From Panopea generosa (lineage: Eukaryota > Mollusca > Bivalvia > Adapedonta > Hiatellidae), in contig CM055895.1 in NCBI GenBank assembly GCA_029582155.1, positions 54,874,464 to 54,938,463 on the forward strand: a DNA stretch of 64,000 nt. The letters run 5' to 3'. The notes beneath the pieces are model-generated. The model worked only from the letters and a program-made list of their open reading frames with translations. It did not search any database and was not told the origin of the DNA. The stretch's first letter is position 1. Every line of letters starts with the position of its first letter. The position numbers and the translations under genes are program-made. This document shows positions 37,851 through 64,000 of this stretch, one piece after another.

Positions 37851-39919
37851 TTAACTTATCTCGTATGCAAATGTCGACAACGCTACTCAATATTTTAAAG
37901 AAAATATTAAATACAAAAATGGTGGGTTAGCTGTTCCGTCCTGTATATGTATTGTACTTAGTTTACTTATTGGTATTGTTCATGCTGTTTTTGTGGCTGT
38001 GAATGATACGTCGCACATTGGTTATTTATAGTTTTAATGCCAAAACAGCTGCAATATATATATGAAAAAGGAAGGCACTTGGCACCTTTTGACATGATGG
38101 TTTCTTATTCTAAACATATATTATTCATGTTGGTTCATCGTCCGTTGCCAAAACTACGCGCACCATGTAATATATCTACAAATAAAAGCAATAACCCATG
38201 CTGATGCAGCAGACGAGTAATTAACACATTTTCTGTGAACACTAATATTATTAGAAGAAACAAGTATCATATGTAGCACGCAAATTTCCTTTCAAGTTTT
38301 AGATCTGTCTTAGATCTGGATGTATATAACTTTTGTATACCGTAACTACCCAACACGCACTGGACATATAAAGTGGCGTCTGATGTTAGTCTAGATAAAA
38401 TTTCTATACCAATTGTATAACTTGATAATTTATAAGTGTTCTACACAATATGTTTACAAACATATAACGCATAGCAGTTGTATAATAATGTATAGCAAAC
38501 TATATCAAACTTTAACTTTTTGCAGTTTTTGCACATCTATCTATCGTATTCGAAATGATAGATCTATACCAATTCATTAAACATGCTTTATATAAAATAT
38601 ACATTAAAACTATTGTATGACTTATCTTGGAGATAAAGGTCACACAGGTGAGGCTCGTAAGCCAAAAAACAACAACTGCAGACTGATGTAATATGAATAG
38701 ACAGTATACAAGAGTTGATATATAGTCTGCCAAATTCTAGCATGAAATTATGCCTTTGTGGTCGGCATGAAACGGTATATTTACGATATATTTCAAAACC
38801 ATGATACAAGTGCATATAAAGAAGATCAAGTGCAGACTTTAAATATTTATTCATATACTCACAGTTTAACATAACAACAATTTTGATATAACGGTTGTTG
38901 TAAAGCTGTTCCGGAAGTTACACAGATGGTGATTGTTCTTGTGATATCCCGGATGTAAGTCACACAGGAAATGCTGACATTACAGAGTCTGTTCTCGCGC
39001 AGTTTCTGCAATGGGAATAAGTACGTATTTACAGACTAAGATCTGTAACTGGATATTTAATAACTGATAAATAAATAAATATAACAATGAGTCACTCCAC
39101 CGTGTTTATAGTATGATTCAAATCGTATCACATATATCCTTTTATGTATAGACGGAATTCTTATATAACATTATTATCATTAAATTGCATAAAGGAGTTT
39201 CACATTATTATAATTTACTATCAAGTTGGAGAACTTGGTTTTTCTTACTATAAAAGTCGATTGAAATTTATCATTATTTCCTTAAATTGCATCAAAGTTT
39301 GCTGGCATTATGTTTTGTATTTTCAACACTAAAAGTTGATGATTCAAGTTTCTGCGTGGTAGGAATGATTTAAAAATGTCTACAAATAATGTAATTTATT
39401 TAATACATAAAAGCATTAACATGAAGAGAGAGACATTAAACACCCCCTAGACGCTAGAAGACAATACTCGTAAAGTCTCATTAGAAAATATGTAAACACT
39501 TTATCACATTTATGTGTTTCGGTTTTGTTAATATATCCATTTATGAGTTTGGTGCACCTGAACACATGAGTAAAATATTTTTATTTCTACATCATTTTAA
39601 ATAATTCAATAGAAATAAAAAATGGCACGACTAACAAGAGACGCCGCATTCAAAGATCACAACCACCATAGCATTACAATTAGTTTAAGAATTAATTAAT
39701 TAAAATAAATATAATACACGAATACATCAGTGACAACAGGGTCGCCGCCTTAAAACGACCAGTAGCAAAATACCCAACCTCGCCCTTCTCCATAAGACGG
39801 GAAAATGATAATAATATGTAAATAAAATGTAGAAAAAGGGATGTCCGTCCGATTATTGTCTTACAAAACGGCAATCTGCAGATGTGTCGATTGTATAAAA
39901 TCAGAAATTATGAGGTGTA
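37851..39919. other. Non-coding stretch with one doubtful exon-like frame
   Basis: Mostly featureless AT-rich DNA. A plus-strand frame at about 38904-39020 reads SCSGSYTDGDCSCDIPDV.. and ends ..SVLAQFLQWE before TAA. It begins just after a stop and an AG dinucleotide, so it could be the last coding exon of something, but no family is recognised and no upstream exon was found. Confidence 0.35.
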
Positions 39920-39924
39920 CGTGA

Positions 39925-40625
39925 TATATATACTGTATATGTAATTTGTTATACTATATACAGAGGTATATGTTATACTATACACATATGTTTATGTAAT
40001 ATGTTATACACAGATGTATATGTAATCTGTTATACTATACACATAGGTATATGTAATATGGTATACACAGATGTATATGTAATATGTTATTCTATACACA
40101 GAGGTATGATGAGGTATATGTAATATGTTCTACACAGAGGTATATGTAATATGTTATACTATACACAAAGGTATATGTAATATGTAACAGTTATACGTTA
40201 TACTATACACAGAGGTTTATGTAATATGCTATACTATACACAGAAGTGTATGTGATATGTTATATTATACACAGAAGTATATGTAAAATGTTATACTTTA
40301 CACAGAGATATGATGAGGTATATGTAATATGTTATACACAGAGGTATATGTCATATGTTTTACTTTTCACTGAAGTATATGTAATATGTTATACTACACT
40401 CAGTGGTATATGAAATATGTTATACTTCACACAGAGGTATATGTATTATGTTATACTATACACAGAGGTATATGTTTTATGTTATACTATACACAGAGGT
40501 ATATGTAATATGTTATACTATACACAGAGGTATATGTAATATGTTATGATATACACAGAGGTATATGTTATATGTTATACTATACACAGAGGTACATGTT
40601 ATATGTTATACTATACACAGAGGTA
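39925..40625. repeat. 31-bp tandem array (about 20 units)
   Basis: Unit GTATATGTAATATGTTATAC followed by TATACACAGAG. Units near 40440-40620 are almost identical and the left part is degraded, with units missing bases. An 11-base ATGATGAGGTA variant occurs twice (about 40106 and 40311), hinting at amplification of multi-unit blocks. Confidence 0.92.
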
Positions 40626-41204: not shown

Positions 41205-41610
41205 GTTCAAGGTCTCACTTAAGAATTACTTCCCCCACATGACGGAAGCAAGATTAAGATAATGTGTAATTTGGTTTGGCATAGTATGTTTTTTTTACAG
41301 ATGAGAATAATGAAACATTGTCATGAGTTGTGCCAGGTTTGACTGACACTGGTTGCTGCTTGATGAAGATATAACAGTTTGAAGATGCGTAGTGATACAC
41401 TGCAAGAATTGAACAGAATTGTCAAAAATGAAGGGTTTCCTCAAACTATTGATATTGTGAAAAAGCAACCTGGCCAACCCAAATTTTTTTCTGCATATTT
41501 GGAGCAACATATGGCAATCTAAGGAAACAAGGTGCTTTTAGAACCATCAGTAATGTGTTCAGTGTTCCAGAAGTGCATGTCTCTATATGAAGAACAATGC
41601 AAAATTAATT
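41205..41610 (+). repeat. Dispersed repeat family A, copy 3
   Basis: GTCTCACTTA, CATGACGGAAGCAAGATTA, GAAGATGCGTAGTGATACAC, TGCAAGAATTGAACA, GATATTGTGAAAAAGCAACC, TGGCCAACCCAAATTTTTTT, CTGCATATTTGGAGCAACAT, TAGAACCATCAGTAATGTGT and TCAGTGTTCCAGAAGTGCAT follow the same order as the other copies. It gives the longest continuous match to copy 4. The minus frame 41295-41510 is not conserved between copies. Confidence 0.8.
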
Positions 41611-41967: not shown

Positions 41968-42205
41968 GTTAGTTATGGAATAGGGTTTAATGCCACTTTT
42001 ATCCTATTTGAGGATATATAAGGCATTTCCAGTTTTATTGTTGGAGGAAGACCTCGGAATATTGTGAGTAGAACCACCGTCATTCCGCAAGTAACTGACA
42101 AACTTTCTCATATAAAGTTTCTTGATCGAGCGGGACTCGAATCTACGATCGTAGCGGTAAGAGGTGACTGATCTTGAGACGGTGCTTTATCCACTCGGCC
42201 AAGGT
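41968..42205 (-). mobile_element. Bivalve-type SINE with tRNA-Leu-like head
   Basis: Minus strand, about 238 bp. The head starts near 42205 with TTGGCCGAGTGG (A-box region), has an anticodon loop like CTCAAGA (CAA, Leu) and a B box GATTCGAGTCC. The body has TTACTTGCGGAATGACGGTG, GGTTCTACTC and GGTCTTCCTCCAACAATAAA. It ends GTGGCATTAAACCC. This head, body and 3' end match, from memory, a SINE widespread in bivalves. AAACAGG at 41961-41967 and 42206-42212 looks like the target-site duplication. It is not a functional tRNA gene because the stems are degraded. Confidence 0.85.
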
Positions 42206-42724: not shown

Positions 42725-42965
42725 CTTTATTACACCACACGAGCGGCCTAAGGAGCAGTCTCAACATCACTTACCACTTACCGTTAAGGTTGAAGGATCG
42801 AGTCCCTTTCGCTTCAGAAACTATATGTTAGAAACTTGCCATTTACTTGTGGTAATTTGGTTGTTCTGCTTATATTCATTCTGAGGTCTTTCTCCATTGA
42901 TAAAACTTTATACGCCATACATAACCTGAAATATGTTGAAAATGCAGTTAAACTCCATTAAAAAG
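42725..42965 (+). mobile_element. Second copy of the same SINE, plus strand, more decayed
   Basis: Degenerate head (CGAGCGGCCTAAGGAGCAGT, TCTCAACATCA, then B-box-like GATCGAGTCCC), body with AGAAACTTGCCATTTACTTG, TTGGTTGTTCTGCT and GAGGTCTTTCTCCATTGATA, and 3' end GAAATATGTTGAAAATGCAG followed by TTAAAC. The order is the same as in the 41968-42205 copy but in opposite orientation, 520 bp away. Confidence 0.75.
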
Positions 42966-43487
42966 CTTAAAGAAATATACCAAACAAACATTAAAACCGA
43001 GTGTGTGCATAAGGTGTAAAGTCGTTATCAGATGTTGTTATAGTGTTTGAGAGTGTTTTATTATAGACATTGAAAGAAATTGTTCTAACATCAAATTTTT
43101 ATGTTCCTGGAGAAATACTGATTTAAGACAAAATGACAGTAACTGTTAAACTTATGGACAGGTTTCTTAGGAAGGTAAATCAAAGGTGTATTTTTTATTT
43201 CCTTTCCTTGAAATCTCGAGAGAAGAAACCTTATTCTAGCAACAGGAATTATACTTCGTGGATAACTGCGTATGTGTAATTTATTGTGATTTACGATAGT
43301 ATATAGAGTAACAATCTAAAATGATTTGCTTGCGGTGTGATGATTAAAGTGGACAATAAATACTTGTAACTATGCGTGTGGCAGATATAAAGCTTTTATT
43401 TATTAGGTAGACTTCATTTCCACACATTTCTATAACGTATTAATAATTATACTGCCGCGTGATACTCATTCTATAATAAGCTGGTAG
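42966..43487. other. Non-coding stretch
   Basis: Nothing recognised. Confidence 0.5.
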
Positions 43488-43870
43488 GCCTCACTTACCA
43501 TTATCTCCCCTTAGAGACGGTAGCAAGATTATTGCGCCCATTGGGCAATACTTTTGCTGGAAATGCTTAAAATATATTATATTTGAGAATATGAGAACAT
43601 TAGAACATTTTAATTCGTTCTATCAAGTTTGGATGGCATTTGGTACAGATGGATTAAGGTATAGCAGTTTAAAGAACGTAGTGATACACTGTAACAACTA
43701 AGCAGCACTGTCATTTATCAAACTATCGAAATTGTGAAAAATCAATCTGGTCAACCCCCATTTTTTTTTCCTGCATATCTATGGAAACATGCTTCGTTTA
43801 GAATCAATGGCAATGTGTTCAGTGTTCCAGAAATGTAGGTCTATATATGTAGAACAGTATAAAATTAAGT
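43488..43870 (+). repeat. Dispersed repeat family A, copy 4
   Basis: GCCTCACTTACCATTATCTC, GACGGTAGCAAGATTATTGC, GTAGTGATACACTGTAA, ATCGAAATTGTGAAAAATCA, TCAACCCCCATTTTTTTTTC, CTGCATATCTATGGAAACAT, GTGTTCAGTGTTCCAGAAAT and TATATGTAGAACAGTATAAA. Together with copy 3 it shows that the family extends about 380 bases. Confidence 0.8.
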
Positions 43871-44849
43871 TCTACTCTGCTATGGTGCTACTTATGAGAT
43901 AATTGGCTTTTCATATAGTACATAAAGTGTAATAGTAAAATGGTATGCATATGTTATAACAATATGGTACATTTATAAAATGTTGTTCATATTCATGTGC
44001 CTTATTTGTATTCGTATGATTCTTAGGATATTCGTATGTATCCGTTATATATTGTGGAAGGGATTGAATGGTATAAGTTGTTGCATCATATTTAAAATGA
44101 TTAATTTATTAGTAAAATATATGTCATACCATCGGGCTGCTACTTCAAACATATAGGGTAGCTCATGTGGATAAATGTGTACTAATGTGACACATATGTG
44201 AGTCAAATTTTCTTTCCTTTGTAATCAGATAGGTGCATACAAAACCTTTATTTGTCATCTTCATATCTGTATATGTGTTTGCGAAGTAAGGGGATAAATC
44301 TTTGAATTATGCAGTTATATTCATTTGTCAGAATGAGTGGGAAACAGTTTTCTTATACTTGCAGTTATACAATTTGTAGACTGCATTTTGAAAAAGTAAT
44401 ATCTTAATTAACAAATTTACAATCAAAATAGGATTTTTAACATATCTGGACTATAAATAAGTGATCATGTTTGAAATATAGTATTTTTTCATGTAATTAA
44501 AAAAATACTTTAGTTTAGTTGCATTGATTTGCATAAAACTATCAGTTAAGATAGTAATTAAATGGACTTTAACTTCCTTTACCAAACGATTATCCATTAA
44601 AAAATATGCTTCAGGTTTGAATGTCACAAAAAAATTCTTCTGCACAAAAACTGATATACCAATTCGAAGATATAAGAATAAATATGTTACGCGGATAACA
44701 TATGTTTATAGATTACCTTGATTATCTTTAAACTGAATCGATTAAAAAGTTCCCCAACTTAAGCACAACTTGATATGAGTCGAGGAAAGATATGGCGCAT
44801 CATACTCACTTGTCATGTTTTTCCAAGAGACACACGACTAAACAATATC
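43871..44849. other. Non-coding stretch
   Basis: AT-rich. The opposed frames at 44451-44645 and 44524-44721 are AT-rich chance frames. Confidence 0.5.
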
Positions 44850-45480
44850 AGCCCAGTAGTATGATTATTTATCCTCATGTAGCTGTCAAATAGCGAGACA
44901 CTAGATGGCGCTGAGATAAATCTCATGAGACGTCTACCTCATCTGATATGTTTGCTGCTAATTGATGAATGCCAAGTCCAGAGGACGTTTTTAGAGGAGC
45001 GAGCATAAATCATGGTATCCAGTCATGGCCAATACATTTGCCATTTACAGAGAATAGTAGTGATGACGGTGTTAAAGATCAAAATAATTATTGAGACTCG
45101 TAAGAAGAACATTAATATCAAAGACAGAAATAATAGGACTGGTGTTTAAATATAGTACTATTGTTGAAATATTAGAACATGATTTGTCTAGTGCATTAGT
45201 GGGCGGCGTCTGAAGTGATGGTTTTGATATTTATTAAAATCAGGAATCTTAACTGGCTACTTGGTAATCAGAGAATCAATGATCTATCGGCCAGAATATA
45301 CTGATGTATCGGTATTTAGATCGTTTACATAAATCTCTGCACGTCATTAAGAAGGTAAACGGCCTTGTGCTTTGAGGTGAGGCTATAAGTATAAGTAATT
45401 ACCCCCGTAGGTCATGGAATAACTTTTTACAAAATAAGGCAATTATTGTCCACTAATTTAAACTGTTCATTAAGTGGAAT
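44850..45480 (+). repeat. Repeat R, copy 2 (long form)
   Basis: Parallel to 48815-49545. The head has GCGAGACACTAGATGGCGCT and TCTCATGAGACG (decayed form of TCTCGCGAGA). The middle part shares GGTATCCAGTCATGGCCAAT with TAGTCTCCAGTCTTGTCCAA at 48970. The end shares TGGCTACTTGGTAATC, ATACTGATGTATCGG and ATTAAGAAGGTAAACGGCCT. It immediately precedes tandem block copy 1. Confidence 0.7.
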
Positions 45481-48400
45481 TGTAAAATAATGTTTAAAAA
45501 GTTTTAATGCCATTTTAAACACATGGCAGAATATATATGTGGCATACATGGTTTTATTATCGAACAAAGACCACAAAATTTATCTGAGTACGGCCACCCT
45601 CCTTCCGGAAATAACTTTCAAACTTGCTGACATAATTGTTTGACCTGGATAAGCTAGAAAGCAGCACTAAACATGAAAACAAAAACTTCATACAAAATAT
45701 AAAAATTTCTTTAACAGAAACTAGTTTAACACCATGTATTGATAACGTTGAATAAGATGCAGATAAAACCCTGCAGCGTATATGCCGTCAAACAAAATAG
45801 ATACTGTTCATATATATGATTAGAGTGTTCGTCTGGTCATCCCCAAATGCAACACCATCCTAAATATATGACATATACAATTTATGTATTTATATTGTTT
45901 GATAAAACAGATTCGGTCCGTGTAAGATTTATATTGCTATAGAACTTACTACAATACTACATGTATGTGATGAAATGATCCAAATGGACAATAACTAACA
46001 CTGTGTGGGGCGCATATCAAGCTTTCATTCATGAGTTTTTTGCTCTCGAACAATATAACAATTACAAAGGTAATACATTTGTGCATTTGTTTTCCGTCGA
46101 TACGTTTTATATTGTTATATAGAAAATATGTTAAGTAGATACCTCGCAAAATTATGTTTCAATAGAAGATACGGCAGTAATGCAATGTCTTTGGATACTC
46201 AATAGTAAATAAAATAATATTAAATATTCGACAACATTTGCTCCGCATCAAAGTAGAATAATAAACGCAAAACAACAGCAGCTTTTTCTCCATCACATTG
46301 TATGTATTCTCTGTACATTATGACTAAAGCTGCGTTACCATTACTTGATAAATCGGTAGATACAACAATGTTTCGTCATTTCCACTGGTTTAAATACGGT
46401 TTCTTTAATACTCGTTCATTATTTTTTACCTATTTATGTTTACCGCTGGGAAATCACGCTGTCAATCGTTTGTATAAGACGCCTTCAGCAACTTACTTAC
46501 AATTGCATCATTTGCAATTCTTGCATCAATTGGATTAGATAATTATTTTTTTTCTCTACTTGAAGTGAAACGTGCATATCGATTTTGAATTACTTTCCAA
46601 TCAAATAACGTATAGAACAATTATTTGTTATCAACTGCATTCACTTACACTTGGTTTAAAACAACAGTCAAAGTGTTTCCTTAGTCGTGGCAATAAATTA
46701 AGATGCTACACAATTTATACGATTGAAGTGTGTTTATGCATTTTTCGTTTAATTCTATAATATTGATAGTTACTGATATATAGAAAGGTAATTCATTATT
46801 ATATGATCTAACATGTACAACACGAAAATTTGAAAAACAAATGTTACATTGTATAGTTTAACAACCCACGCATATAGTAATGAGGCGATATTGTCGAAAC
46901 CACATACGCATGTAGTTTTTATTAACCGTATTGTACAACAATATGCCTTACTATAAAATGATCATCTTGTTGAAAAATAGCTGAAAATGTTGGCAAGAAA
47001 GTTTACTGACATTTCTGACATAGCTTAAAAAATGATTGATACGATATGTAAGTTGTGGAAATATGTTAAAACTGTCTAGATATAGTTTGTATAGTTTTCT
47101 AAAGAGACCGCATATTTACATCAATCTGTTGTTAGTAGGGGTAACTGAAGTAAAGAAATGAAAAAAAGGTTTACTTAACAAGATCACTCTGCCATATGGC
47201 TAGCTAATTTTAACACAATAACTAAATAAATCGACATGAAGGTAGTTAATCAAATAAGTAATAGTGGTTGTAGATTTAAGGTATAAATACTTCTGATTCA
47301 TTTATTGATAACAGCATTTATTAGAAAATAGCAGTCTTACTTTATCTTAAGTTCATGATATTCTCACTGACGTTATCTCGTATAATTTTATGGAAGGATG
47401 TAGCTCAAGACCAGTGTTGTCATGTATTTAGATAATATATATTGTATTTTCACAGACAGTTATGTTTGAATAATTCTTTAAATCATTTTATGGACATATA
47501 ATTGTCGCCAATTTAATGTTTGCTTTGTCAAACATCGGTTTACATGTACAGTGTATGTTATTGGGAAACTTACAGGTGCAGCTCTCAACTCACCACACCA
47601 TATAACAGCTAGTTATCTGCTATTTGTAGAATACCATTTCTCATTTATTTTACAGTACTATTGATATACCTTTTATATTTATTTGATATTATGTGTGTGT
47701 TAATCTGTTCTAAGGTATGGGATACATTTCAACTTTTCAACTGATGGCGTAACGTTTGCTTTTACTCTGAGTGATTGCTGATCCCCATAAATAGGAACTA
47801 TTTACGACAGGACGCTTTAAATGCTTCTATTGGTGTAGACTGTAAAACATTCAATTTACAACTTAAAATGAGATTTTATTGCTTCCCATTAGCAGAATAG
47901 TTCACTTTAAGCGAAATAAAATAAAGCTAAGTCCAAATCGATAATTAACAATGACGTGAAACAATATTTAAAGACATGCACAAATGTATTACCTTTTAAA
48001 TTGTCTAACTTTATCATACACTAATTGGTAACAATAAAAGCATAGTAAAAGATCCTTACATGAAATGCTCTTACGGAAATAGCCGGACAGTTAAAAGGCA
48101 ATAAATCACTGTTGATTTTCAGTCAGACAGGTTGTCGTTGGAACAAAATGCATTCCTATGTACATTAAACTTTTCGGCTCTGTTTTAACAACCATATAAT
48201 ATTTGAAGCATGTTAAAGCAGGTGACCATGGATATTGCGTTTCTGATAACAGAAACACATTTGTTGTCGATTGTAAAAACAACAGTAATGAAATGTTATA
48301 ATTTTGACAGGATATATATGTATATCCTTCGCGTTGCATATTAAATAGAAGATCTTACATCAGTCTTCATTTGATATTGATTATTTTTTTAAACTAGATG

Positions 48401-48615
48401 ACAAATAATAGTGTGCCTATCATTATTAAATTTCTATTAAATTGTTTAGTAATCTTAATGATAAATTAGAACGAACGTGAGATTCTTTATATCTCGTATT
48501 TCAGAAAAAATGTGAAATTGTCATTTACTTTATATGTTAGCTATTTAAAAAAGGAAAAAAAGTCGGCTTACCAAGACGCTGTAAACAACACAATGATCAA
48601 TTAGTTTTCGCAAAT

Positions 48616-48681
48616 CATCAAATGACGTCAACGTCTCAGAATAATTGAGTTTATATACCAAGAATTATTGACGTCATTTAA
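48616..48681. repeat. Hairpin with a CRE octamer in each arm
   Basis: AAATGACGTCAA near 48620 and TTGACGTCATTT near 48668 are exact reverse complements. AATAATT/AATTATT sits inside them. The two perfect TGACGTCA sites are at 48623-48630 and 48669-48676. It may be a small foldback element or a paired regulatory site. Confidence 0.6.
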
Positions 48682-48814
48682 ATATTCGGTCAAGTCGAAA
48701 AGCGGCTCTGCATTTGAACCTGATAGAATTAAGTAAAGTGGACAATATCGAGAGAGCAATTGCTAGTTATTTTTATGTGTCCTTAACCTTGGTAACAGCA
48801 AACGACTCAATGAA

Positions 48815-49545
48815 ATTGGTCCAGTATATTGATCATCTTACCTCAAGTTGTTGTCAAATAGTGGGACACTAGTTGGCGCTTAAATAATTCTCACGAGACC
48901 TTTATCTCATCTAATATGTTAGCTGTCAATTGATAAAGTGATACTGCTTAGCGGAGAATAATTCTTAGTCTCCAGTCTTGTCCAATAAAGTATTTTTGTT
49001 AGTTTGATATTACCAAGGTGTACGAATTGTGCTTATGATGCAGGTTAAAACAGTTACTAATGCCAGAAGACGCAAATCCTGCATATCATATACGGAAATA
49101 ATAGACTGAGTAAGGAAGTTTGACTATATTACTAGTATTATTAGAATTAAACTTACTTATTATTTATCGATTGTGAAATAAGTTTCAACACGTACTCGAT
49201 GCTCAGCTACTGACGGAAATAACAAGACTTTGGTATAGAGATAATACTAAGTACTGAAATATTAAATCAGAATTGGCTTGTAATTTAGTATTGGATGTAT
49301 GAAATGGTGTTTTTGTTATTTATAGTAATGCATTGGCTACTTATTAATCCGAGCGTCACTGATCGATCTGTCAGCCTATACTGATGTATTGGTTTTTTTT
49401 ATAGACAGCAACATTTCTTGCCCAGTGATTGAGAAGGTCAACGGCCTTGTGTTTAGTGTTGAAATTATAATTATAGGTAAATACCTACTAGTCATAGAAT
49501 ACATATTCTTTATAACAAATACAATGTATTGTCAACGTAATCGTA
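48815..49545 (+). repeat. Repeat R, copy 3 (long form)
   Basis: Head GTGGGACACTAGTTGGCGCT and TCTCACGAGACC; end ATTGGCTACTTATTAATC, ATACTGATGTATTGG and TTGAGAAGGTCAACGGCCTT. Parallel to 44850-45480, offset about 4.0-4.1 kb. The frame at 49389-49655 (..VIEKVNGLVFS..) overlaps the conserved end, but the other copy breaks it with a stop, so it is not called as coding. Confidence 0.7.
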
Positions 49546-49796
49546 ACTATTCTAGTCCTATTTTATATCGATGCATTCGTTCATTTTGGAGAGATAATAG
49601 ATCAAATTTAATTTCGTTACAATGTCGAGACATTGACTTTCCGGCCTTGAACTAATCCTAGTTTCAAGGTGCATCGAATGCAAAGATTCCAATTCCAAAT
49701 ATATGTTCTAACAAACAAAAGTAAATTTCAAATCGCATTGATTCGATTGAACACAAAGCTACAGTTACACTATATATTTTAAATAAGCATTTATAA

Positions 49797-49801
<5 letters not shown>

Positions 49802-49851
<50 letters not shown>
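49802..49851. repeat. (GT)n microsatellite
   Basis: About 48 bases of uninterrupted GT inside block copy 1, absent from the matching position in copy 2. The minus frame with a run of His/Thr at 49664-49939 is an artefact. Confidence 0.95.
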
Positions 49852-49852
<1 letters not shown>

Positions 49853-50940
49853 CGGAGTCCTTGTTGTTGAAAAAGAAATTTGACACATATATTTATATCT
49901 AATATGACAGTATTGCCTCATATATATTTCTAAACACAAAAGAGATTATAAAATGACCAAGTATATATATATATCGTTTTACTATTTATAATATTGTATT
50001 TCTAAATTTTAAAATATATTAGATTATATTCTTTGTAAATTTCTATATAAATCTCTGAGCTTTCATCGCAATCGAGCTCAAGCTAATTAGTATAAAATAA
50101 AAAATATATAAATTTAAATCTATAAAAAAACAACAACAATATTTCACAGCTGCGTCATTTTAAATTCCTACAGCTGATATATTCTTCAATGTCCTTCTGG
50201 ATTAAGCTTTTTTAAAATTCCATGTGCACGTTCAAGTGCAATTAATTGCTTTCCACCAGTGACATTTAATCCTATGCAACACAAATAGGTGAAACAAAGA
50301 TATGCCAGAATACGAATAAACATTGCAGGAAACATTATCTTAAGACATGAAGAAAACACTAAGTTTAGTACATGTACATACATTTTTATAACATTAACAC
50401 AAATATATTAGTTAAATATTCTTTGTAGAACAGTCAGTCATGGTAATGATAAATGATTTAATGGCATCACTTGGGCCACAGTCTTTTACAGTCAGAGTAT
50501 CTGTGGAACCTAAATCCTTTTATATTTTGAAGTTGAAAGTTAAAAAAAATAAAAAGATGAAATGCATACGCTTAAGTTGCAAGAACGTTCAATATTCTAA
50601 ACTTATTTCATATTTTCTAAACATTTTACAATGAACGTTCAATGTAAGTCGGAGAGAAAATACAGTATACATCACGCAAACACATTTCTGATATGAATAC
50701 CGGAATAAAAACACAGTCGAACCTTTCAGTGACATGCTATGGAAAAAAAATATGCCAAAATTGAAAATATCGGTTATAAATATGCATGTTATGTCAAAGT
50801 CAATAAAATCACAAAGGAAACATTAATGTAATAATATAACTTTCTCTTTAATATCAGTGCTCAAAAATGCTGAAATAAAAGAAGTCTTTATTGAATTATG
50901 ATGACCATTCAAATAAAATCATAAAATTATATATCATAGT

Positions 50941-53220
50941 GTTTGATAGCTCTCTTATGTTTATGTCCAATTTCAGAATAAAATGTATAAAAAAAATAAG
51001 AAAATGTATAACAAACAAGAGACGTATTATATAAAAAAAATCAACGAGGCCACCGAAGCAGTTTCAACACAATTAGTTTGAGGAGTGATTAAAATAAATA
51101 CAATTGAATTGAAAACATTATGATAATCGACAGCATGTGAAACGATTAGTTGAAAATATGCCGCTGTGTGCTTAAACCAGGTTAACGGGTGCACTTAACG
51201 TTGCTCTGTTCCTTTCATCATATTATAAGTCGAGACAGTGTACAGAAAAGTATCTCTGTCTGTCTCTTACAAATACGCAGTATTTTTTAACACATCAAGT
51301 TGAGGTATCTTAAATAAGTAATGAAATAAATTGGACGTTACACTATACATATTGCATTTACAACACTGAGAAATATAACGGAAACATGAACATTAAATAT
51401 GATCAAACAATCGCATATAAGGCAGTTTGTGATGATGATACATATGAGTTTTTAAGTGTATATAACGGCTTAAATTGAATTAATAATTGGATTATGATGG
51501 AAACGTGTTGATTATACCCGATTTTCATTGAGGACCATTTAAAGCAGAGCGGTCGTTTATTTGAAAAAAGTTGGATATAAATAAAAGGCATATAATTAAA
51601 TGTCAATATATTCATTTAGTAGCAATAAACATATCAAAAATAATGTTTACTGTGATTAATTTGTTCTACGCATCGTATTTGCCAACATAGATCAATTTAA
51701 TTATATCCAAATTAGAAAACATTTTAGTTTAAACATATTACCTATAATCACGAGATATGGGATTTCAATAAAAAATAGTTTAAAATTCATTGATGTTTAT
51801 TCAGCTATAAATACATATATACTGGTTTCATTAAGTATACATACGCAATTACAAATAAAATGTAGATAAATTAGTCAAAGATAAATCTATAGCTATCAGT
51901 CATACCATATAAAATCAATTAAATATTGCAAATTATTAAATATAAAGTATCATGGAATGCAATTTTAATATTATTGATTTGGCAGAACCCAATGTAAACG
52001 GTTAATGATATATCACAATAAAATATTCAAATATTATTCAATTAATGCAACATAATAATAACCTTTGATTACCCGTGAAGCTCGAAGGTTTATTTCCAAT
52101 ATGGTCATTGGTATTATACTTACTGAGAATATACATTACGAAAGGTAAATAAAAAAACAGACAAGTGATATGCTTTTTTAAATACACGTTATAAATAACA
52201 TTACGTGTCAATTTTAATGCATAATTAATGATAATTGGTGAAGAATGAAGTTAGTGAAGTAACAATTCTGTCAAGCTCCCCAATAAATGAAAACTTTTCT
52301 CAAATCAAATATGTTTACCGAGCTTGGTTCAAACCTGAGCAGTGATGATTTAGAGACCACATTACTAGACAGGACACTAAATCAAGTAACCCCATGGATG
52401 CAATAGCCAATACCATCGAGGAAATTTAAATAAAGGTTATTGACCGAACAATGTACGAAATAATTACACATAATTGAAGACTGAAGCAAGACACTTCTCT
52501 CAATATATCCCACCACAACAGTGTACTTAATTAGACAATCCTAAACAAGGTAATTGGCCATTATTGTCTGATGGAACTCAGCAATTACACTCGTGACGTC
52601 ATTAACAAATCAAACCAGCATTACTGCATTGAGATTTTGATCATCTAATCTTTAATTCTATCTCCCGTGAGACATTCGACAAGATGATTATATAATTGCC
52701 CAGTCTATATTTAAAAAAAAATAGGCTGTACTCCTCTGCTCTACTCCTATTCACCGCTGCGGTGTCTCATACTTCAGAACAAATGCCTTAAGTAAAAAAT
52801 AAACCATCTAGAAAACAAAGGCAGAACATTTAAATGAAAACATTGATACAGTTATGTTTTAAAGATATTGTTTTACATCAAAATGAGTTTTAGTAGAACT
52901 TGTGTACATCCGTAAATGATTGCGAAACATGCTAACATTGCAACATAGTTGTCTTCACCGCTGTTGTCACTCTTGTATATGTTAGTATTGTAGTCATATA
53001 ATTGTTTTTATAAAATGTTTGGTCATGCTGTGCTAGTGAGAGTGTCAATTTGGTTCTATACATTCTGCTGCTTAGATATGTTTTTACTTTCAGACAGAGC
53101 CTGAAATCAAGAAGAAACTCAATTGTAAAACATATCAACAAAATTGAATCATAGTTTATGTTGGACCATGAAAAAAATAGAATTGTCTGAGAATGACAAG
53201 TTTAGGAAAATTTTGTAATT
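50941..53220. other. Non-coding spacer between tandem copies 1 and 2
   Basis: No frame with a recognisable domain. It contains an isolated CRE octamer at 52594-52601. I could not align it convincingly with 58.2-61.8 kb. Confidence 0.5.
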
Positions 53221-53540
53221 GGTTTTAACGCCGTATTATCGCATGGCATGTTATATATTGCATACATTGTATTTAGTTTTGTTGGTTGATGAAGAACTCA
53301 AAATTAATCGGAGTAGTAACACCCTCCTTCCGGAAATAACTTGTAAACTTGCTCACATATAGTTTTTAAACCGAGCGGGGCTCTGGACAAACCAGAAAGC
53401 CGCACTGAACATGAAAACAAAGAATATGATATAAATTACTGTCTTCAACAAAAAGTATGTATTTCATAGAGTAGAATAATTTGAAGAGAGAAAAGCTGCA
53501 GAGAATAAGATTTCAAATAAAAATAAATATATATCATATA

Positions 53541-53619
53541 TCGCCCCATTGGTGCAAAATAGTACCAAGTGCATTCTTATTGTATATACACTTGGTACCT
53601 TATTGCACCAATGGGACGA
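53541..53619. mobile_element. 79-bp palindromic foldback element (MITE), copy 2
   Basis: Ends TCGCCCCATTGGTGCAA and TTGCACCAATGGGACGA are exact reverse complements apart from GC/GA at one place. TATA flanks both sides (53537-53540 and 53620-53623). Block copy 3 at about 62058-62080 has the uninterrupted ATCATATATATGATTTGATT, which is the empty site. Same element as 9026-9105. Confidence 0.9.
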
Positions 53620-56309
53620 TATATGATATGATTCTTCGCCTGGTCATCGTCAAATGCAACACCATCTCAAATACCTGACATATACAATATACGCCTTTAT
53701 CCTGTGTAATAATACAGCTTCGGTGTGTGATTTATACGGTCATATAGAATAGAACTACAAGAAAACTTGTCTGCGATGTAATGATCCAAGTGGCCAATAA
53801 ATAACACTGCGTGGGACAAATATCTAGCTTTTATTCAGAAGTGTTTTGTTCTCTAACAATAGAATAATTAATTGGTTTCCTTTAATATATGCCGTATGGT
53901 TATATAGCAAACTCGTTAAGTATATATACCGCATATTTCTGATTTACATGTTTATGTGGTATCATCATTTTCATTATAGGAAACGGTACTTATGACATGT
54001 CGGTGGATACTCAATAGTTAAAACAGGAATAATAATCATATACAATTCATGTGACTTCTAATGTACTCTTTATTTTAGTATTCTGTTAATCAATTTTCCT
54101 AATTCGACAACATTTGCACCGTATCAAAATAGACTGATTCACGTCCAAATAATAGCATCACTTTATCCATCTTTATTACATTGTATGTAGTCTATGTACA
54201 TTATGACTAATGCTTCGTTTCAATAACTTGATAAATTGGTAGAAACAGCAATGCAACTTAATTGTCACTTATTTCAAAACGTCTGCTATTATTCTCGTTC
54301 GTTTTATTTACTTATATATATATTCACCGCTGGGAAATCAATCGTTTGTGTAACCGCCAATAGTTACTTATTTACAATTATAGAATTTACATTTTCTGCT
54401 TTCAATTGAATTTGAATGCTTTTTATTTCACTATTGTGATTGAAATTGCGCAGGTCAGTGGAAAGTGCATGTCAATTATGATTAACATTTCACTCAAGTA
54501 ACGTATAGAGCATTAATTTGTTATCACATTCATTAGCTACACTCAATTTAAATTTTTTACAATAAAAAAACGGGTTCATCGCTTCTGCACGTAGAACAAC
54601 GCTGTTTATATTTTGCAAAAAAAAAAATTCTGACGTTGACATTGTCAACATTTGAACAGATGTTACATGTACTAAATATTAAAACAATATTAAATTGTGT
54701 TGTTATTTCTGTTAATTATAATAATTACTCAGATTGTTACAGTAAATTATATTATCATAATTATAGAAAGTTTGTCTACGATACACATGGGACACACCTC
54801 GTATGTTGGCACACATCTGATATTGAGATAACCTATGCGTTTTTGTTCGTTTAATGTTACCGTTACAAAACATGGCTACGTAAAATGGATTTGATCACAT
54901 CGATAAAAAACTACCAATATTAATTCTTGAACTTCAGATAAATGTCCAAGTTGATCTGTAATGACATGAACCAAGTGTTTACTAATTATTTTCATATTAA
55001 AGCTCAGCATCATATTTTGACTAAACTATGAAACAAATTCAATACAACTAGCAGAATAGCAGAATAATATAGATTTGAAAAACACAGGTTACATTGTATA
55101 TTTAAACAACTCTCGCATATAATACTATAATACGATGTTATAGTTACTATATACGTTCAGTTTTTATTAATCTGCCTTGTACAAAAGCATCATCGTCTCT
55201 TGTTCCTAAATAGCTAGACATGTTTGCAAGAAATTTCCTAACATTTGGAATCAATTTTTAACCTAAAAATAGATTGATACGATATATAAGTGATAATCTA
55301 GATTTCTGCATAGTATTTATATTTACATCCACTTGCTATATTAAATCAATGTGCTGGCAGTGGGGGTAAAATGAAAAATAAAGAAAGTGTCTAAATAACA
55401 AGTTTTTATTGTACTGCTTGAAGGAATGTTTCATACACAGAAAATAGCATTTACTAGATAATAAATGTCAAAAGGAATCTTTGGGAGTACAGTGCGTAGC
55501 CAGGAAATGCACACTTAGTTTTACTTAACTATAACTACACGCCTTCTCCAATAGCCTCAGCTTAAGTAGTTTAATATTTTCAAACCCCATTGAATGATTT
55601 GAATAATTCTCAAGGATCAGAGGTAAGGACAGCACTGAGGTGACTTTTGTTGTGAAAATCAAAACGCAAGTTCAATAATACATTACTTGCATGCAAGGTT
55701 AAAACTGATCATTATCATTGTATATTTGAACTATTCAGGACCCTATATAACATAGCATATTAATAATGCATTATTCTTTCTTCCTGTTTTCTTTGGTCAG
55801 TATTCTGGGTAAACATTTATAGTTTTTTTGTTTGTGTGTCTGGTTTTTAAACATAACTATTTGACGATATTACATATGTTTATTTTCATTATCATTTAAA
55901 CTTGAGCATGCTTAGATTGAAACATCTCATTTAAATGATAAAATAAGCACACTAGAAATAGTTTAAATACTATGTGCGCTATGGGATTTATTCATTCTTT
56001 GAAAATATACCAAAATGTGAAAATATACCAAAACTTCGACAAAACAAACTCTTCAAATAAATCTGAATTTAAAATAGCAGTCTAACTTTATCTTAAGTAC
56101 ATGATATTCTCCCTGACAGTATCTCGTATAGTATTTATGGAAGGATGTAGCTCAAGACCAATGTTATCTTGTATTTAGAAAATATATATTGTATTTCTCA
56201 GACAGTTTCAGAAAATTTCTTTAAATCATTTTATTTGCATATTTTTGTCGCCAATTTTATATTTGCTTCGTCAAACATCTGTTTACATATATGCAATGGG
56301 GAAATTTAC

Positions 56310-56925
56310 AGGAGCTGCTGAAAAAAGCGTTTTTTGTTTTTTTTTGTTGTTGTTGTTTCTTATCAATCACTTAACGGTTTCACCGGAAAGAATTATTAGT
56401 TTTACCCTTCGTCCGCTATACGTCCTTAAAGATTACTCAAACAGTATCCAAGCTAATTTTGTGAAAATTTGCATGTGAATACATGGTAATAAAGAGAAAA
56501 TGGAAGTCATTTGATTTGTTCAGTCGGAAAAAAATATGGGTTGCTATGGCAACAAAATAAGTAAAATTACAGATACAATCTTAATCCTGTGATAACATAA
56601 AAAGTATTTAAGCAACTTTTGTGATACTTTGCACGTGAATAGAGAAAAATATGGACATTATGTAGCTCCTTTGATAATATTTTCAAAGGATAAAAAATGA
56701 GGTTACTATGGCAACAAATATGGTGAAATTACAGATACAACTTGGATCTTTAACACTTACATTGTCTAACCTACATTTGTGAAATTTTGGATATGAAACA
56801 AATCGGTTACATAATTTGATTTTTTACAGTCGAAAAAAATATTGTAAATTATTAAAAAAATGGATCCTGCAATAACTCAGAAAGTATTCACAATATAAAC
56901 CTGCTAGTTAGCTTACCATTTCTCA
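56310..56925. repeat. Insert with internal repeats and X-box-like palindromes
   Basis: Absent from block copy 1 at about 47600. It is made of two to three loosely repeated units of about 160-170 bases sharing AAAGTATT.AAGCAA, TTTGTGA.A.TTTGCA.GTGAA, CAGTCG.AAAAAAATAT and AA.TTACAGATACAA. Each of the first two carries GTTGCTATGGCAAC (56540-56553) or GTTACTATGGCAAC (56702-56715), close to the RFX X-box. Confidence 0.65.
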
Positions 56926-58200
56926 TTTATTTTAAAGTTCTATTCATAGACCTATTACTTTTATTTGATATTTCGCCAGTATATTAATCTGATCTAAGGT
57001 ATGCGATACATTTCTCGCTTAACGGGTCTCAGCTGTTGGCGCAACGTTTGATTCAACCAAGAGTGGCAGCTGATTACCATACATAGGCATTTTTTTACGA
57101 AATGACGTGTACTTTCAAATGCTTCTTTTAGTGTAGAATGTAAGGCATTATATTTGCAACTTGACTGGAGATTGTATTGCTTCCAATTAACAGGTCATTC
57201 AAATTAATCAAAATGAAATTAAATAACTAAATCGAGAATTAACAATGACGTAAAAACCATACGTAAATGCATGCACACAATACTTACCTTTTAATTTTTT
57301 TATGCATTTACTATATTCTAATTTGCAAAAGATAAAGCATAGTAAAAGATCCTTAACAGAAATGTAGTTACGGAAATAGCCAACATTTTAATGGCAATAA
57401 ATAACTAATTATTTTCAATCAGACAGATTGCCGTTGGGGCAACAATATATAATTCTACGTACACTGAACTCTTCAATTCAGTTTTGAAATATTCAACAGT
57501 AATTTATGAGCAGCATGTGAACACCAAAGATTGATTAAAAAGAATGATTGTGACATTATAGCCACATATGTATTTCTAAATGGATAGAGATTACATAATT
57601 GACAGGTATATACATTTCAATATAAATTTCCACAGTCATTATTTTGTTATAATTTTAAATTCAGTTAACAATGTAACATCACTTCTTTTAAAAATAAAGA
57701 TTATATTCTTCTTTACTTTCTATAACAGTAACACTATTTCACCACTCCATCCATTTACAGTTGGCTGATTAATCCTCAATATCCTTCTAGAATAAGCTAT
57801 TATAAAATTCCACCTGAATGTTCAAATGAACACCAGTGAAATTTAACTCTACAAAAAATAAATAGATGACATATGAGTAAGCCAGAATACGAATAAATAT
57901 TGACAGGAAACATTATCTTAAGACATGAAGAAAACTCTGAGTTTATAACATACATTTTTAATACCATAACAAAATATTAAGATCCTTTATGTAGCATTCA
58001 GTAAGGTTCTAACAAAATAATTTAACGGCATCAAATAGACAAATGTCACTTTTCAGTCAAAGTGTTTAAACGGTATCAAAAACATTTTATTTGTTGTTCA
58101 ATACCTACTGCTCAAAATAGTTAACAATCATTTATTTGAAGAATATTTATTATTATTTGATCATTAAATGGTTCAATTAAAATCCCCAAAGAATATCATA

Positions 58201-58439
58201 TTAACATAATTTAACGCATTTTACTATTTGGTCAACATTACTGATTCTTTTTTTTTTGTAATATAATTATATAACCACCTGACAATTATCCACCCGTGTT
58301 TAATTGATGTCAGTAATGCATTTTTATCAAGTCAATGCATTCATTTCTGCTGATAAACTGCCTGCCTGATAAACATAGATTATCACGTCATTGCAAGTAT
58401 AGCAGGCACATGACGTCATTATGTATACTTCATGACGTC
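58201..58439. other. Short spacer with CRE sites
   Basis: AT-rich, ending in ACATGACGTCATTATG and CATGACGTCGTTATG close to the mariner relic end (58408-58445). These repeated words may belong to the element terminus. Confidence 0.4.
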
Positions 58440-59345
58440 GTTATGGTTACTTATACATTTTGACCTGGACAGAACTACTTTTAACTTTATTTAAAATGAA
58501 TAAAAAAACGAAATATAGAAAGCGTCACGGTAGGCTGACTGCGGTATACTACGAAGGCACTGGTTTACGCCAGAACCAAGAGCCTGTCATGACCCATATC
58601 TACGACCAGAGAGGAAGGTTTTCAATTTGGGAAAGAGAAATAAGTCACATGGGGCAAGGTATGGGGAGTAAGGGGTTGTGGAAGCATTATCATTTTCTAA
58701 AAACTTTTTAAAAAAGTCCGTTACGAGGACATTGTCATGCAAGAGGCGAACATGTTTGAATCCAGTGACTGGGCGACTTTTTTCGTAGTACCTCTTCAGT
58801 TTAATTAATACTACATCACGATAGTACCTTCTTCTCACAATCTTACCATTGTTTACCAGCATTGCTAAATCTTCAACAGAGAAAATAATTGCATAAAGTA
58901 TCTTTTTACACTCAAGGTTCTTTTGGCAATGACTGGCCGTCTGTCGTGTTTGGTGACCCACTTTGTTCCCAACCTTTCGCCCTGGTTTGAAATAATGTAC
59001 CCAGGTATCGTCACCAGTGACAAAATTTACGAATTCCCTTTGATTATATCCAGGGAACGTTTAAAGCAGTTCGTTTTGGCAGTTTCATCTCGTCGTTTCT
59101 TTTGGTAGTCAGTCAACAAGTGTGGCACCCAGCTAGCAGAATTTTTTCTAACTTTCATAATTTCTCAGAACGAAATGAATTGAACATAGAAAAACGCCCA
59201 TAATGCGTGCTATATTACGCACATTATATCGCGCATCATTTCGAATAATTTCTCAATAATTTTAGACACGACTTTCTTACATGTTGCCGTCTTTGGCCGA
59301 CCAGATTTTGCTGCAATTTGCATACATCAGAATCAAATTAACTAC
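58440..59345 (-). pseudogene. mariner (DD34D) transposase relic
   Basis: Minus-strand remains of a mariner transposase, the enzyme that cuts and pastes its element at TA sites. Order on the minus strand: SGRPKTATCKKVVSK-like linker (about 59320-59270), helix-turn-helix remains, WVPHLLTDYQKKRR near 59125-59085, first catalytic Asp in VTGDDTWVHYFKP (codons at 59008-59019), a middle part rich in HC.K (58960-58800), second Asp in RLLHDN (58731-58739), and third Asp in LAPCDLFLFPKLK (58644-58646), followed by LSGRRYGS and a C-terminal remnant to about 58440. Only 29 residues separate the second and third Asp, where mariner has 34, because about five residues after HDN are deleted. Several frame breaks and a stop near 59065. 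No inverted repeats could be fixed. Confidence 0.9.
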
Positions 59346-61800
59346 AAACTCATAAGACAATTTTGTCAACCTATAAACCGGTGTGATTTCATCAAAACTA
59401 TTTTTTGAAGTACAACCGAGATTAGTACGAACTTTAATACAAGTCCGAAATTCCTCATTATTTGCTTATTAATACCGAAATGACTATAAATCTGGAATCC
59501 CGTATTTCATCAGAAACATGTAAATACCATTCGGTAGGTATTGAAAACAGCTTTCCTAGCGTATAAATTGCAGGTACATTTTGTGCGACTTATAAATACA
59601 CAATATTTTTCTAACACCCTCGTATTGACTTTATTTTAAAGGCCCATCGCCGGTAGCTCCTACACACAGTATTATAGGCGGGGCTTATCACTAGCAGCCG
59701 ACAAGTTTACTACAGTTATTTGATAATACTCATGTCCAACATAAGCTGTAACTACCAGCATAGCCATAGATGATACTGCCTATTGCAAGTTAATACACAC
59801 TGAATTTCTTGTAAATATAATTGATTGATATTATGGAAGTTAATCTAAGCAACAATGTTTATTGTACATGCAGGTTCCTCAGTATTATGGATTAAAATAA
59901 AGGTTTCCCCAGATTAAGTACAGCAAACACAGCACTCAAATATATTGCAATGGACATCTTATCTGCATGCATAATAAACAAAATTGCTAATTAGATACAT
60001 CCAATTTACAGTTTCATGCTGGGTTACATACAACACATCTCTGGTCATGATCAAAGAGATAAAGTGAAATTATTTGGGTCAAGTTCCATGGATTAGTACA
60101 TTATTTACTGAGAGAGAATGAAACTATTTATGAAAAATGGTTTATCGTATTTATTATGGACTTATATCAAACAGGCATACATGTTGTAATGAATTGTAAA
60201 TAAATTGCTTGGACACAAGTAAAGGGCAAACAATTATTTGTGAGACAAAACATAAAAAGATTGAAAATACAGAAACCCCTTTAACATAATAGAATGACCC
60301 ATTCCATTTAAGTTCATAATTTCCCTGGCAAAACTTACAAATGGAAGAAAATGTGGAAATACTTTGAAGGTTTCGAGTGAACAATTTCGTATATTATTTC
60401 ATTTATTTGATTATAATGAGTGTGATTTCAAGATCATTTAGTTACACCAGACTGGTCAATTAATGTTGATGAAAATAACTATAGTTAGACACAGAACTTA
60501 AAGGAATATTTATTGTCAGATGGCATTCAGGACAAAAAATGAGGCACAGATGGAGAAAGTGGGGGAAGTGATTATGATGCTGCTGCTGATGATGATGATG
60601 ATGATGAAAATAAATACATTCCTGTTGAACAGTTATGGATATTGTTTCATGTCCGTTAATAACATTTCAACATCAGTTTTGGCTAGGTGAATTTTCATTT
60701 CCTAATCAAAGAAACAGTCTTTTACCAAAACGTAGGCTAGATACAGAAAATACTGGAATTTGTTTTCAAATGTAGGAGTTTGGTTCCTACTTAATTATGT
60801 AAGAAAAAAAGCAAAGAATATTGAATCAACCAAGATCTAAATTATGCCAAGTTGTGTTTTGAACCTAGTTCATGGTTCATACACAAACATCCAACGCGCC
60901 TATATAGCACTAAGTGGTTTTCATTGAAGGCTGTGATATAAGAACTGTAAAAACAATAAAATGACATTTATTTGCTTAAAAAAAAAAACAATTTAGAAAG
61001 GAAGCTATTGTGAATTATGGGATTCAGAATAATGATCAAACAAGGTTAGTGTAAATGGTTACTTATTTGCATCCAAATAAGAAAGCATGTATGCATGTAT
61101 CTAAGATAAGCCATAAACTACAATGTATAATCATTTGTTTATAATATGAAAAAGGCAGATATATTATGAAGATTAATCTTCATAAACATGTAATTCACAA
61201 ACTGAAAGTCAAACACATTATTCTACTCTGAGATATCAAACACTGCATGGCTCCTCATAGTGGGTTATACACATCTCCAAGCAAGTGTTGCTGTTTACAC
61301 CACGTGACAAGGGTCAAACGGGTTCAAAATTCAAATATTTAGCAAATTTTCCTTGATATCTCAATTTTGTAAGGACTACTACTACTTTGTTTCAGGGAGC
61401 TTTTGTGAATAAAGGGCATTTTTATAAAGCCAAAGTATGTCCCTACAACTACACTTCTTTTTGAAAATAATGACAACTTTGTTTCTATGTTTTACAGAAA
61501 AACATCTCCCAGTTCAACATTGTTGCAAGAAAGTGCCACCATTTGAAATTAGGCTCCTCCCATTTCATTTTATAGAAAAGTTGGGGGTTTAAGTATTTCA
61601 TATACAATGTATTAATAGTGTTCATGTTATTTTGAGGGATGTCTCGATTGTGTTGGTTATTTTGATTTAATGTCATCCATATATCCTGTTATATTGTTAT
61701 TGTTTATATACAATATTAAATCACTCAAGTACAGAACATACGTTTGTATTTCTAAAACGGAGAAGACAAAATTGCGATTATGTTAAATGCTTTTTTTTTT
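59346..61800. other. Non-coding spacer between tandem copies 2 and 3
   Basis: A plus-strand segment at 60490-60660 reads KEYLLSDGIQDKK, stop, GTDGESGGSDYDAAADDDDD.. ..ENKYIPVEQLWILFHVR. Such acidic N-termini occur in several DNA transposases and host proteins, so I do not assign it; a (GAT)n run at 60588-60606 produces the Asp run. A GC-richer patch at 59637-59705 (GGCCCATCGCCGGTAGCTCC) may be the end of an unrecognised element. The rest is featureless. Confidence 0.4.
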
Positions 61801-62594
61801 GCCATTTTCAACGTATGACGTTATATTTCTCATATCTAGTTTTGTTCATGGAGTAAGCTGGCAAACTCTAGCATATTGAGTTTTTTTAACTGAACCGAGC
61901 TCTGGACAAACCTGAAACTAAATGAAAATAAAGAACTTGACACACACTATTAAAATGTTTCAAACAAAAAAGAGGCAAACTGTATGTATTCATAAAATAG
62001 AATAGAATAAATCAAAGAGAAAAAAACTGTAGAGTATAAGATTTACAAAAAAAATAAATATATATCATATATATGATTTGATTTTTCGCCTGGTCATCAT
62101 CTAATGCAAAACCGTCTAAAATACTTGACATATACAATGAACGCCTTTATCCTGTGTCATAATACAGCTTCGGTCGGTGTGTGATTTATATGGCCATATA
62201 GAACAGAACTACAAGAATACCTGTCTGCGATATAATGATCCAAGTGGCCAATAAATAACACTGTGTGGGACAATATTAAGCTTTATTTTAGAAGTTTTTC
62301 GTTCGCGAACAATAGAACAATTATCTGCTTTTCCGATGATATATGTTATAAGGTTATATAAAGAACTTGTTAAGAAGATACATCGCATACCTCTGGTTTA
62401 CATATTTCTGTGATGTCATCATTTCAATATAAAACGGTCTAATGACATGACGTTTGATACTTAATAATAAAAATAGTAGTAATAAGTATTTACAATTTAT
62501 GTGAATTCTTATGTACTGATTTTTGGTGCTCTGTTAATATCTTTTTTTCCTAATTCGATCACATTTGCACTGCATCAGAATAGAATGTGATTGC

Positions 62595-62598
62595 CCAA

Positions 62599-62651
<53 letters not shown>

Positions 62652-63235
62652 GGTCTCACCATTGGAAACCCCTTGGTACCACCAAAAGATAAGATTCCAG
62701 GATAAGTTTTCTGTTAATGAGTTGTGTGAAATAAGTTTCAAAGTATCCAGTAGGGTCATATTACACCCAACACAAAATTTTACCACACTCCAAAGTTCCA
62801 CACTAGACGTGACGATGTTCATTGTTTTTCCTATTCAAATTTGCACGTTTTCTTTCACAAGTGCGCACAATATTCAAATGTTTATCGATAACGTCGATTT
62901 TTTTAATGACATTCGCACATGATCTGAAATTACGTCCACTGTTATTTTTTAAACATTAAGCGCGATATTAAGGAAGCTGTCTGCTTTTCAAGGCAATGTT
63001 GTTGTTTTTAATGGCGTCTAATTTCAAAGTCCCCCGTACTTCTAAACTCGCGTTACTATGTTGACTTTTGCATGAACTTAATGATGACTGAAAGTTGATT
63101 TGATGTTACATGACAATCGAAGAGATGCCAAACTATCCATTGATACCACTGGTTTGCATGTAACGCCCTAAATACAAAAACGACAGGGTCGTCCTATTAC
63201 TTTAGGGACATACCTCGTATTACTTCATTTCCATT
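62595..63235. repeat. Insert specific to block copy 3, led by (CT)n
   Basis: The (CT)n run at 62602-62649 is followed by about 590 bases with no counterpart in copy 2 (homology stops near 54135 and resumes near 54290). An 86-codon frame at 62662-62922 inside it has no recognised domain. I cannot say whether this is an insertion here or a deletion in copies 1 and 2. Confidence 0.55.
62602..62649. repeat. (CT)n microsatellite
   Basis: About 47 bases of uninterrupted CT dinucleotide. Confidence 0.95.
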
Positions 63236-64000
63236 TAATTTAATACAGCTGTTTTATTCTCGTTCTTTATATTTACTTGTTTATACATATGGCAGGGAAA
63301 TCTCTCTGCCAATCGTTTGTGTAAGATGCCCACAGTAACTTATTTACAATGATATCATTTGCAAGGCTCGTATCAGTTTGATTTGAATGCTTTTTCTACT
63401 AATGTAACTTTAATTGAAGTTGCGCATGTCAATTCAAAAACGTATAGAACATTAATTTGTTACCAAGTCCATTAACTTACACTTAATTTTTAAACTACAA
63501 TCATAATATATGTATAGCCCTGGCGTGAATTTATTCTGTACACAACATATATGATAGCAGATTGTTTATACATCATTCTATTAATTCTATAATATTAATA
63601 GTTACTTTTATATAGTAAGGAGATTCATTGTTATATTAACTATTAGATTTTATATTGTTATTTAATGATATAATATTTAACAATATAATGTTAGGTTGAA
63701 CATTCGAGAGGATATGCAATAAAGATCTTATTAATTATAATACAATGATGTTCTTGTAACTATATACGTACGTGATTAATTTGTCTGCATTGTACAACAA
63801 CATGCTGCAAAAAACGTCACCGTGTCTTGTTCTAAAATAGCTAGACATGTTGGAAGGAAAAAATGCTGACACTTGAAATTGAGTTTTAACCTCAAAATAG
63901 TGTGATACGAAATATAAATGATTGATGATATTTTTAAACTGTCTATAAAAAAAAATTCTGCATAGTATTTATATTTACGAACACTATTTTAAGTCCATGT

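Follow-up and report, generated by a model that had tools for sequence, protein, structure and literature searches.

Non-coding DNA in Panopea generosa, edged by a SINE relic and probably multiplied by ancient tandem segmental duplication

In human 22q11.2, Alu SINEs are enriched at the subunits that were duplicated, and their ends have been proposed as points of exchange (PMC3040729). A second point of comparison is the Patella satellite PcH-sat, which accounts for about 10% of the genome of Patella caerulea and has been proposed to descend from a Nin-SINE (PMC11121367). The array that we describe here was not found in the literature on mollusc SINEs and SINE-edged duplications, which was searched by feature and not by species name. 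It lies in a stretch of 64,000 nt from Panopea generosa (CM055895.1, assembly GCA_029582155.1, positions 54,874,464-54,938,463, forward strand), referred to as the window, and consists of three blocks that share a headless SINE at their starts. The parts in common are as follows:

45501-50529, plus strand: part of block A common with B, holding the SINE, S1-S5, X and then Y (from blastn segments against B)
53222-58096, plus strand: part of block B common with A and, as far as the window reaches, with C
61801-64000, plus strand: block C, cut by the window end (blastn matches to B and A; profile match from 61795)

Self-comparison of the window placed the starts of the three collinear blocks, all in one orientation, at 45501 (A), 53222 (B) and about 61800 (C), with plus-strand diagonals at offsets of 7597-9284 for A-B, 8450-8966 for B-C and 16251-16849 for A-C. 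The initial annotation had described three tandem blocks of about 8 kb with collinear landmarks, starting at 45500, 53221 and 61801, and had named a dot plot as the check: the starts proved right to within a few bases, and the A-B and B-C diagonals are present. The collinear tandem arrangement thus stands, but no more than about 60% of a block (7.7-8.6 kb) is common sequence. Nor is the SINE alone in common, an outcome against which the annotation had set its claim: homology beyond it spans about 5 kb, reaching 50529 in A, 58096 in B and the window edge in C at an identity of 59-87%, and its left edge is the SINE tail in all three blocks.

Pairwise comparison of the blocks (E 1e-3; blocks cut at 45500, 53221 and 61801) gave 6 segments with 3118 aligned columns for A-B, 4 segments with 1337 columns for B-C and 3 segments with 1380 columns for A-C, the third of these emerging once A is cut at 45500; every segment lies on the plus strand. 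When the second block was reversed without being complemented, no match was obtained in any of the three comparisons. Block A was also compared with six control windows between 1 and 43 kb: three were without any match, 14-22 kb gave one (55 bp), 28-36 kb gave three and 35-43 kb gave six, the last two windows containing a dispersed repeat, the older fragments and the separate SINEs. The segments and the named pieces within them (blastn identities) are:

A 45501-46660 with B 53222-54552, plus strand: 64%
A 46828-47182 with B 55073-55402, plus strand: 67%
A 47325-47583 with B 56071-56319, strand not assigned: tract S5 and its counterpart, 84%; 216 of 248 aligned columns identical
A 47617-48216 with B 56901-57521, plus strand: piece X and its counterpart, 74%; a distant paralogue of Y
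A 49905-50529 with B 57551-58096, plus strand: piece Y and its counterpart; a distant paralogue of X
A 49905-49970 with B 57551-57615, plus strand: within piece Y, 76%
A 50094-50529 with B 57691-58096, plus strand: within piece Y, 70%
B 53328-53541 with C 61845-62072, plus strand: 70%
B 53619-54136 with C 62069-62587, plus strand: 81%
B 54256-54549 with C 63222-63489, plus strand: 68%
B 55126-55352 with C 63736-64000, plus strand: 67%
A 45666-46228 with C 61917-62490, plus strand: 69%
A 46371-47078 with C 63220-63945, plus strand: 67%

The SINE itself was followed with a profile built from five copies in the window, so that the E values of these source copies (all below 1e-19) are expected; the next best match, at 52876-52948 (E 0.0035), is possibly a further relic. 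The five copies are:

45498-45635 (end approximate), minus strand: SINE relic opening A, head missing, E 5.4e-40 (copy in the profile)
53219-53383 (end approximate), minus strand: SINE relic opening B, head missing, E 1.1e-44 (copy in the profile)
61795-61890 (end approximate), minus strand: SINE relic opening C, head missing and an internal part deleted, E 6.7e-20 (copy in the profile)
41981-42202, minus strand: separate SINE with a tRNA-like head; A-box-like stretch 42191-42202, B-box-like stretch 42130-42142
42736-42957, plus strand: separate SINE with a tRNA-like head; A-box-like stretch 42736-42746, B-box-like stretch 42796-42806

In A, B and C the head of the SINE is missing, and alignment, judged by eye, reveals the same sequence beyond the break in all three. 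Since the three blocks have in common not only the headless SINE but also the flank past its break, a single insertion preceding the duplications is indicated, in agreement with the original claim that one antisense SINE had been in place before the blocks were copied. The SINEs at 41.98 and 42.96 kb belong to the same family and have the common 3' end, but retain a tRNA-like head and have flanks unlike those of A, B and C; from these features they would be best read as independent insertions. Judged by eye, stretches within their heads look like A and B boxes, and the family presumably resembles mollusc SINEs. ARAGORN called no tRNA at either head, and the window's sole tRNA call, at 18872-18943, is located away from the array.

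We consider it probable that the array arose long ago by tandem segmental duplication of non-coding DNA, and the best reading of its later history is that the copies have been decaying mostly neutrally. The unit already contained the truncated antisense SINE when it was multiplied into a tandem row of at least three (A, B and C), with unequal exchange as the likeliest cause; the SINE tail marks the beginning of every unit, a hint that SINE copies may have served as the points of exchange. After duplication the copies would have drifted, lost pieces and gained other mobile elements. What is observed matches tandem duplication in that the copies are collinear, side by side, in one orientation and carry a pre-duplication insertion, and it matches SINE-mediated unequal exchange in that a SINE stands at the junctions in A, B and C; the whole unit including its ends, however, is not repeated. 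Decay following duplication also fits the insertions private to single copies, namely a palindromic element in B at whose site A and C are uninterrupted, a stretch of about 1.7 kb between X and Y in A (48216-49905) that is without a match in B, and a mariner relic in B:

53542-53618, strand not assigned: palindromic, MITE-like 77-bp element, in B only; relative at 9021-9109
48799-49552, plus strand: dispersed repeat within the A-only stretch; relatives at 44831-45468 and 30234-30327
58590-59060, minus strand: Mos1-like mariner transposase relic in the unshared end of B (phmmer)

The mariner relic matches Mos1 chains over residues 5-156 (phmmer E 2.1e-06), and Pfam gave no family for it at E 0.1.

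The main weakness of the tandem-duplication reading lies in the non-matching block ends: the label is our best reading, and membership in that class is unproved. Comparison of the end of A (50.53-53.22 kb) with that of B (58.10-61.80 kb) gave nothing above background except the end of Y, which leaves the last 2.7 kb of A and the last 3.7 kb of B without homology above background. Plain tandem duplication predicts that these ends should match, and the mismatch hence implies either that later insertions and deletions replaced them or that another mechanism was at work. The 400 bp to the left of the SINEs likewise exhibited no clear homology, with nine of ten flank pairs within the range of 60 base shuffles: B-left gave 39.5 with C-left (its shuffles averaging 31.5, with sd 4.2 and a highest score of 41.5) and 42.5 with the left flank of the 41.98-kb SINE (highest shuffle 46.0), each of them close to the upper limit. 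The tenth pair did exceed its shuffles (45.5, maximum 41.0), but both of its stretches lie left of A.

The relations among the copies were assessed from columns in which two copies agree against the third: over S1-S4 (n=381) these number 184 for B-C, 115 for A-B and 82 for A-C. Taken as unpolarised columns without an outgroup, these counts appear to show that most changes are carried by A, and the natural reading of the same outgroup-free comparison would be that B and C are sister copies. MAFFT alignment likewise ranks B-C first in similarity in all four segments, by a narrow margin in S1 and S3, whilst the blastn pieces do not place B-C (68%) first in the S3 region; the earlier impression that the second and third copies are closest therefore holds overall, though not for S3 by blastn. 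Divergence is also uneven along the blocks. S5, about 250 bp long and 87% identical, is the most similar of seven A-B segments, differing in 32 of 248 columns (12.9%) as against 24-32% in the other six (p 3.2e-07), and heterogeneity in A-B mismatches among segments persists after its removal (p 0.008). Mismatches are clustered, with a bin variance of 26.0 against 9.5 expected and none of 2000 permutations as high: this clustering is in part a product of poorly aligned stretches of S4 and Y (45-58%). S5 does not fit uniform neutral drift, and its similarity could be explained by gene conversion or by constraint.

Two pieces to the left of the array, both oriented as the blocks are, resemble parts of the unit:

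36568-36946, plus strand: older relative of X/Y; blastn to A 47751-48110, E 1.2e-41; profile E 1.8e-31
43285-43406, plus strand: older fragment of S2, corresponding to about 0.5 kb into the block; profile E 5.8e-11; blastn to B 53726-53835

They suggest that there may have been one or two earlier, now decayed units, but each is a single fragment. Of the two, only the first had been noted before, as a rearranged older piece at 36.5-37.0 kb: it is indeed a relative and in the same orientation, but its rearrangement is unsupported, as the piece resembles both X and Y, which are paralogues within each block (the overlapping stretch 36492-36808 matches Y at E 2.1e-12). A fourth collinear block on the left was also considered, with 36568 (offset 11183), 39576-39772 (offset 11380) and the 41.98-kb SINE (offset 11238) falling near one diagonal that runs to A and the start of B. 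We set it aside because the 41.98-kb SINE differs in its flank and in possessing a tRNA-like head, and because the stretch of A that matches 39.6 kb also matches 35.45 kb, inverted. A conserved core, in which the parts surviving in older fragments would be better kept than the rest, was rejected too: A-B differences in surviving parts against the rest are 26/107 and 72/283 in S2 and 89/355 and 53/238 in X, and A-C differences in S2 are 24/99 and 74/291. Only for B-C was the surviving part of S2 slightly better kept (11/109 against 60/308, p 0.026).

A rival kept alive by the unshared spacers is that everything between the SINE tail and the end of Y, about 3.3-4.9 kb, forms a discrete mobile element, A, B and C being separate insertions of it; an example would be a long RNA whose SINE-derived 3' tail is gripped by the LINE machinery that copies it. 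In favour of such an element, the left edge of each block coincides with the 3' end of the SINE, the common part of A and B stops at the same place, and the copies have no common sequence between them. We nevertheless regard it as unlikely: the three clear copies and two fragments lie within about 27 kb in one orientation, there is no profile match below E 0.4 in 1-36 kb, and the matches given by 66 open frames scanned in 41.9-64 kb include no reverse transcriptase family. Target-site duplications were not detectable either (11.0 and 8.0, against shuffled means of 10.5 and 9.0), although age would hide one. There is a slim prospect that the segment is more specifically a large composite retroelement, that is, a non-coding RNA of several kb with a borrowed SINE 3' end: it would then have been pasted at least three times, side by side and all facing the same way, and this would account for the fixed ends as well as the unshared spacers. 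Were the SINE edge functional in this sense, we would be dealing with a SINE tail that carries a multi-kb passenger.

Tandem units of several kb are a common size for duplicated genes, and the array might accordingly be what remains of a tandem gene family, either as dead genes or as intron and flank DNA whose exons are tiny or lie outside the common parts. The unit size fits, and a Pfam scan of frames of at least 55 codons would miss short exons, yet we find this distinctly improbable in view of the sequence comparisons. Indels show no excess of multiples of three (24 of 115 in 15 pairwise segment alignments), counts in the segment alignments, taken without a formal test, give no clear codon-position bias, and tblastx yielded nothing beyond chance. 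The Pfam scan, which covered 66 open frames of at least 55 codons in 41.9-64 kb, also gave nothing beyond chance, and among the 23 frames in or beside common segments no match was better than E 0.007. The top match among the 66 (TMTC_DUF1736, E 0.00095) falls in none of the 44 frames that were individually resolved; the remaining 22 lie outside the common segments, with the exception of 49667-49945, which overlaps the first 41 bp of Y. A coding origin was rejected on these grounds, which for Pfam apply to frames of at least 55 codons; the suggestion in the initial annotation that the amplified DNA is non-coding is borne out to that extent, whereas its other suggestion, a gene dead beyond recognition, finds no backing in the indel counts or the Pfam matches. 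An RNA origin was rejected as well: no Rfam family reached the gathering threshold in the whole window, and folding of nine segments on both strands (18 tests, 60 shuffles each) was ordinary, with z between -0.78 and 1.84.

That the array is kept as functional non-coding DNA, regulatory or lncRNA, with S5 and parts of S2 constrained, is very doubtful: the low divergence of S5, the strong clustering of mismatches and the better-kept surviving part of S2 in B-C would favour it, but clustering also arises from gene conversion or from misalignment in S4 and Y, surviving pieces are not better kept in A-B (S2 and X) or in A-C (S2), and there is no folding signal; if S5 were functional, it would represent a conserved non-coding element maintained in several copies.

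The array is real, and probably an old and ordinary duplication. Tandem duplication of non-coding DNA remains recognisable here at about 70% identity, and its events can be ordered by the mobile elements that copies share or hold privately. As in the human 22q11.2 duplications (PMC3040729), the duplicated segments are edged by a SINE, but here identity is only 59-87%, the SINE is of another, tRNA-headed family and the recombination step is one that we infer. With their tRNA-like head, their body and the 3' end that they have in common, the SINEs at 41.98 and 42.96 kb would resemble tRNA-derived SINEs of the Nin-SINE type in molluscs and other invertebrates. PcH-sat is likewise tandem DNA with part of a SINE (PMC11121367), but whereas it forms an abundant satellite, the Panopea generosa array consists of a few large and old units.

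The broken open frames that follow one another on the + strand at 17859–23103 are probably the relic of a LINE, judging by a reverse transcriptase match (RVT_1, E 3.7e-05) at 20676–20963, which at 24 bits lies below the curated RVT_1 cut-off of 29.6 bits. A Pfam match to TMEM208_SND2 (E 6e-05) was obtained in one of the 81 open frames scanned between 782 and 41537, themselves drawn from 100 listed; the match was absent from the 10 frames that were scanned again with Pfam.

Repeats are also found in the window. One dispersed family has DNA-level members at 9543–9758, 41301–41608 and 43591–43868 (70–81% alike), together with a member at approximately 4974–5075 recognised by translated match only. 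Two copies of ~520 bp lie side by side at 31482–32531 with 99.8% identity; either the assembly produced this pair or the segment was duplicated in tandem very recently. The window further holds four minisatellite arrays:

24770–25505, minisatellite array, unit ~30 bp
33299–33877, minisatellite array, unit ~39 bp
37490–37858, minisatellite array, unit ~39 bp, 96% uniform
39903–40625, minisatellite array, unit ~31 bp

GC skew is strongly positive at 32001–36000, where two 2-kb bins have values of 0.27 and 0.34, with no matching AT skew.

Within block B, the second of the three tandem non-coding copies, self-comparison of the window revealed a short tandem repeat (~160 bp, 69%) at 56431–56842, between the tract S5 (56071–56319) and the piece X (56901–57521). 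Approximately 270 bp to the left of this block, a weak SINE profile match (52876–52948, E 0.0035), oriented as are the antisense SINE copies that begin blocks A, B and C, may perhaps represent a further SINE relic.
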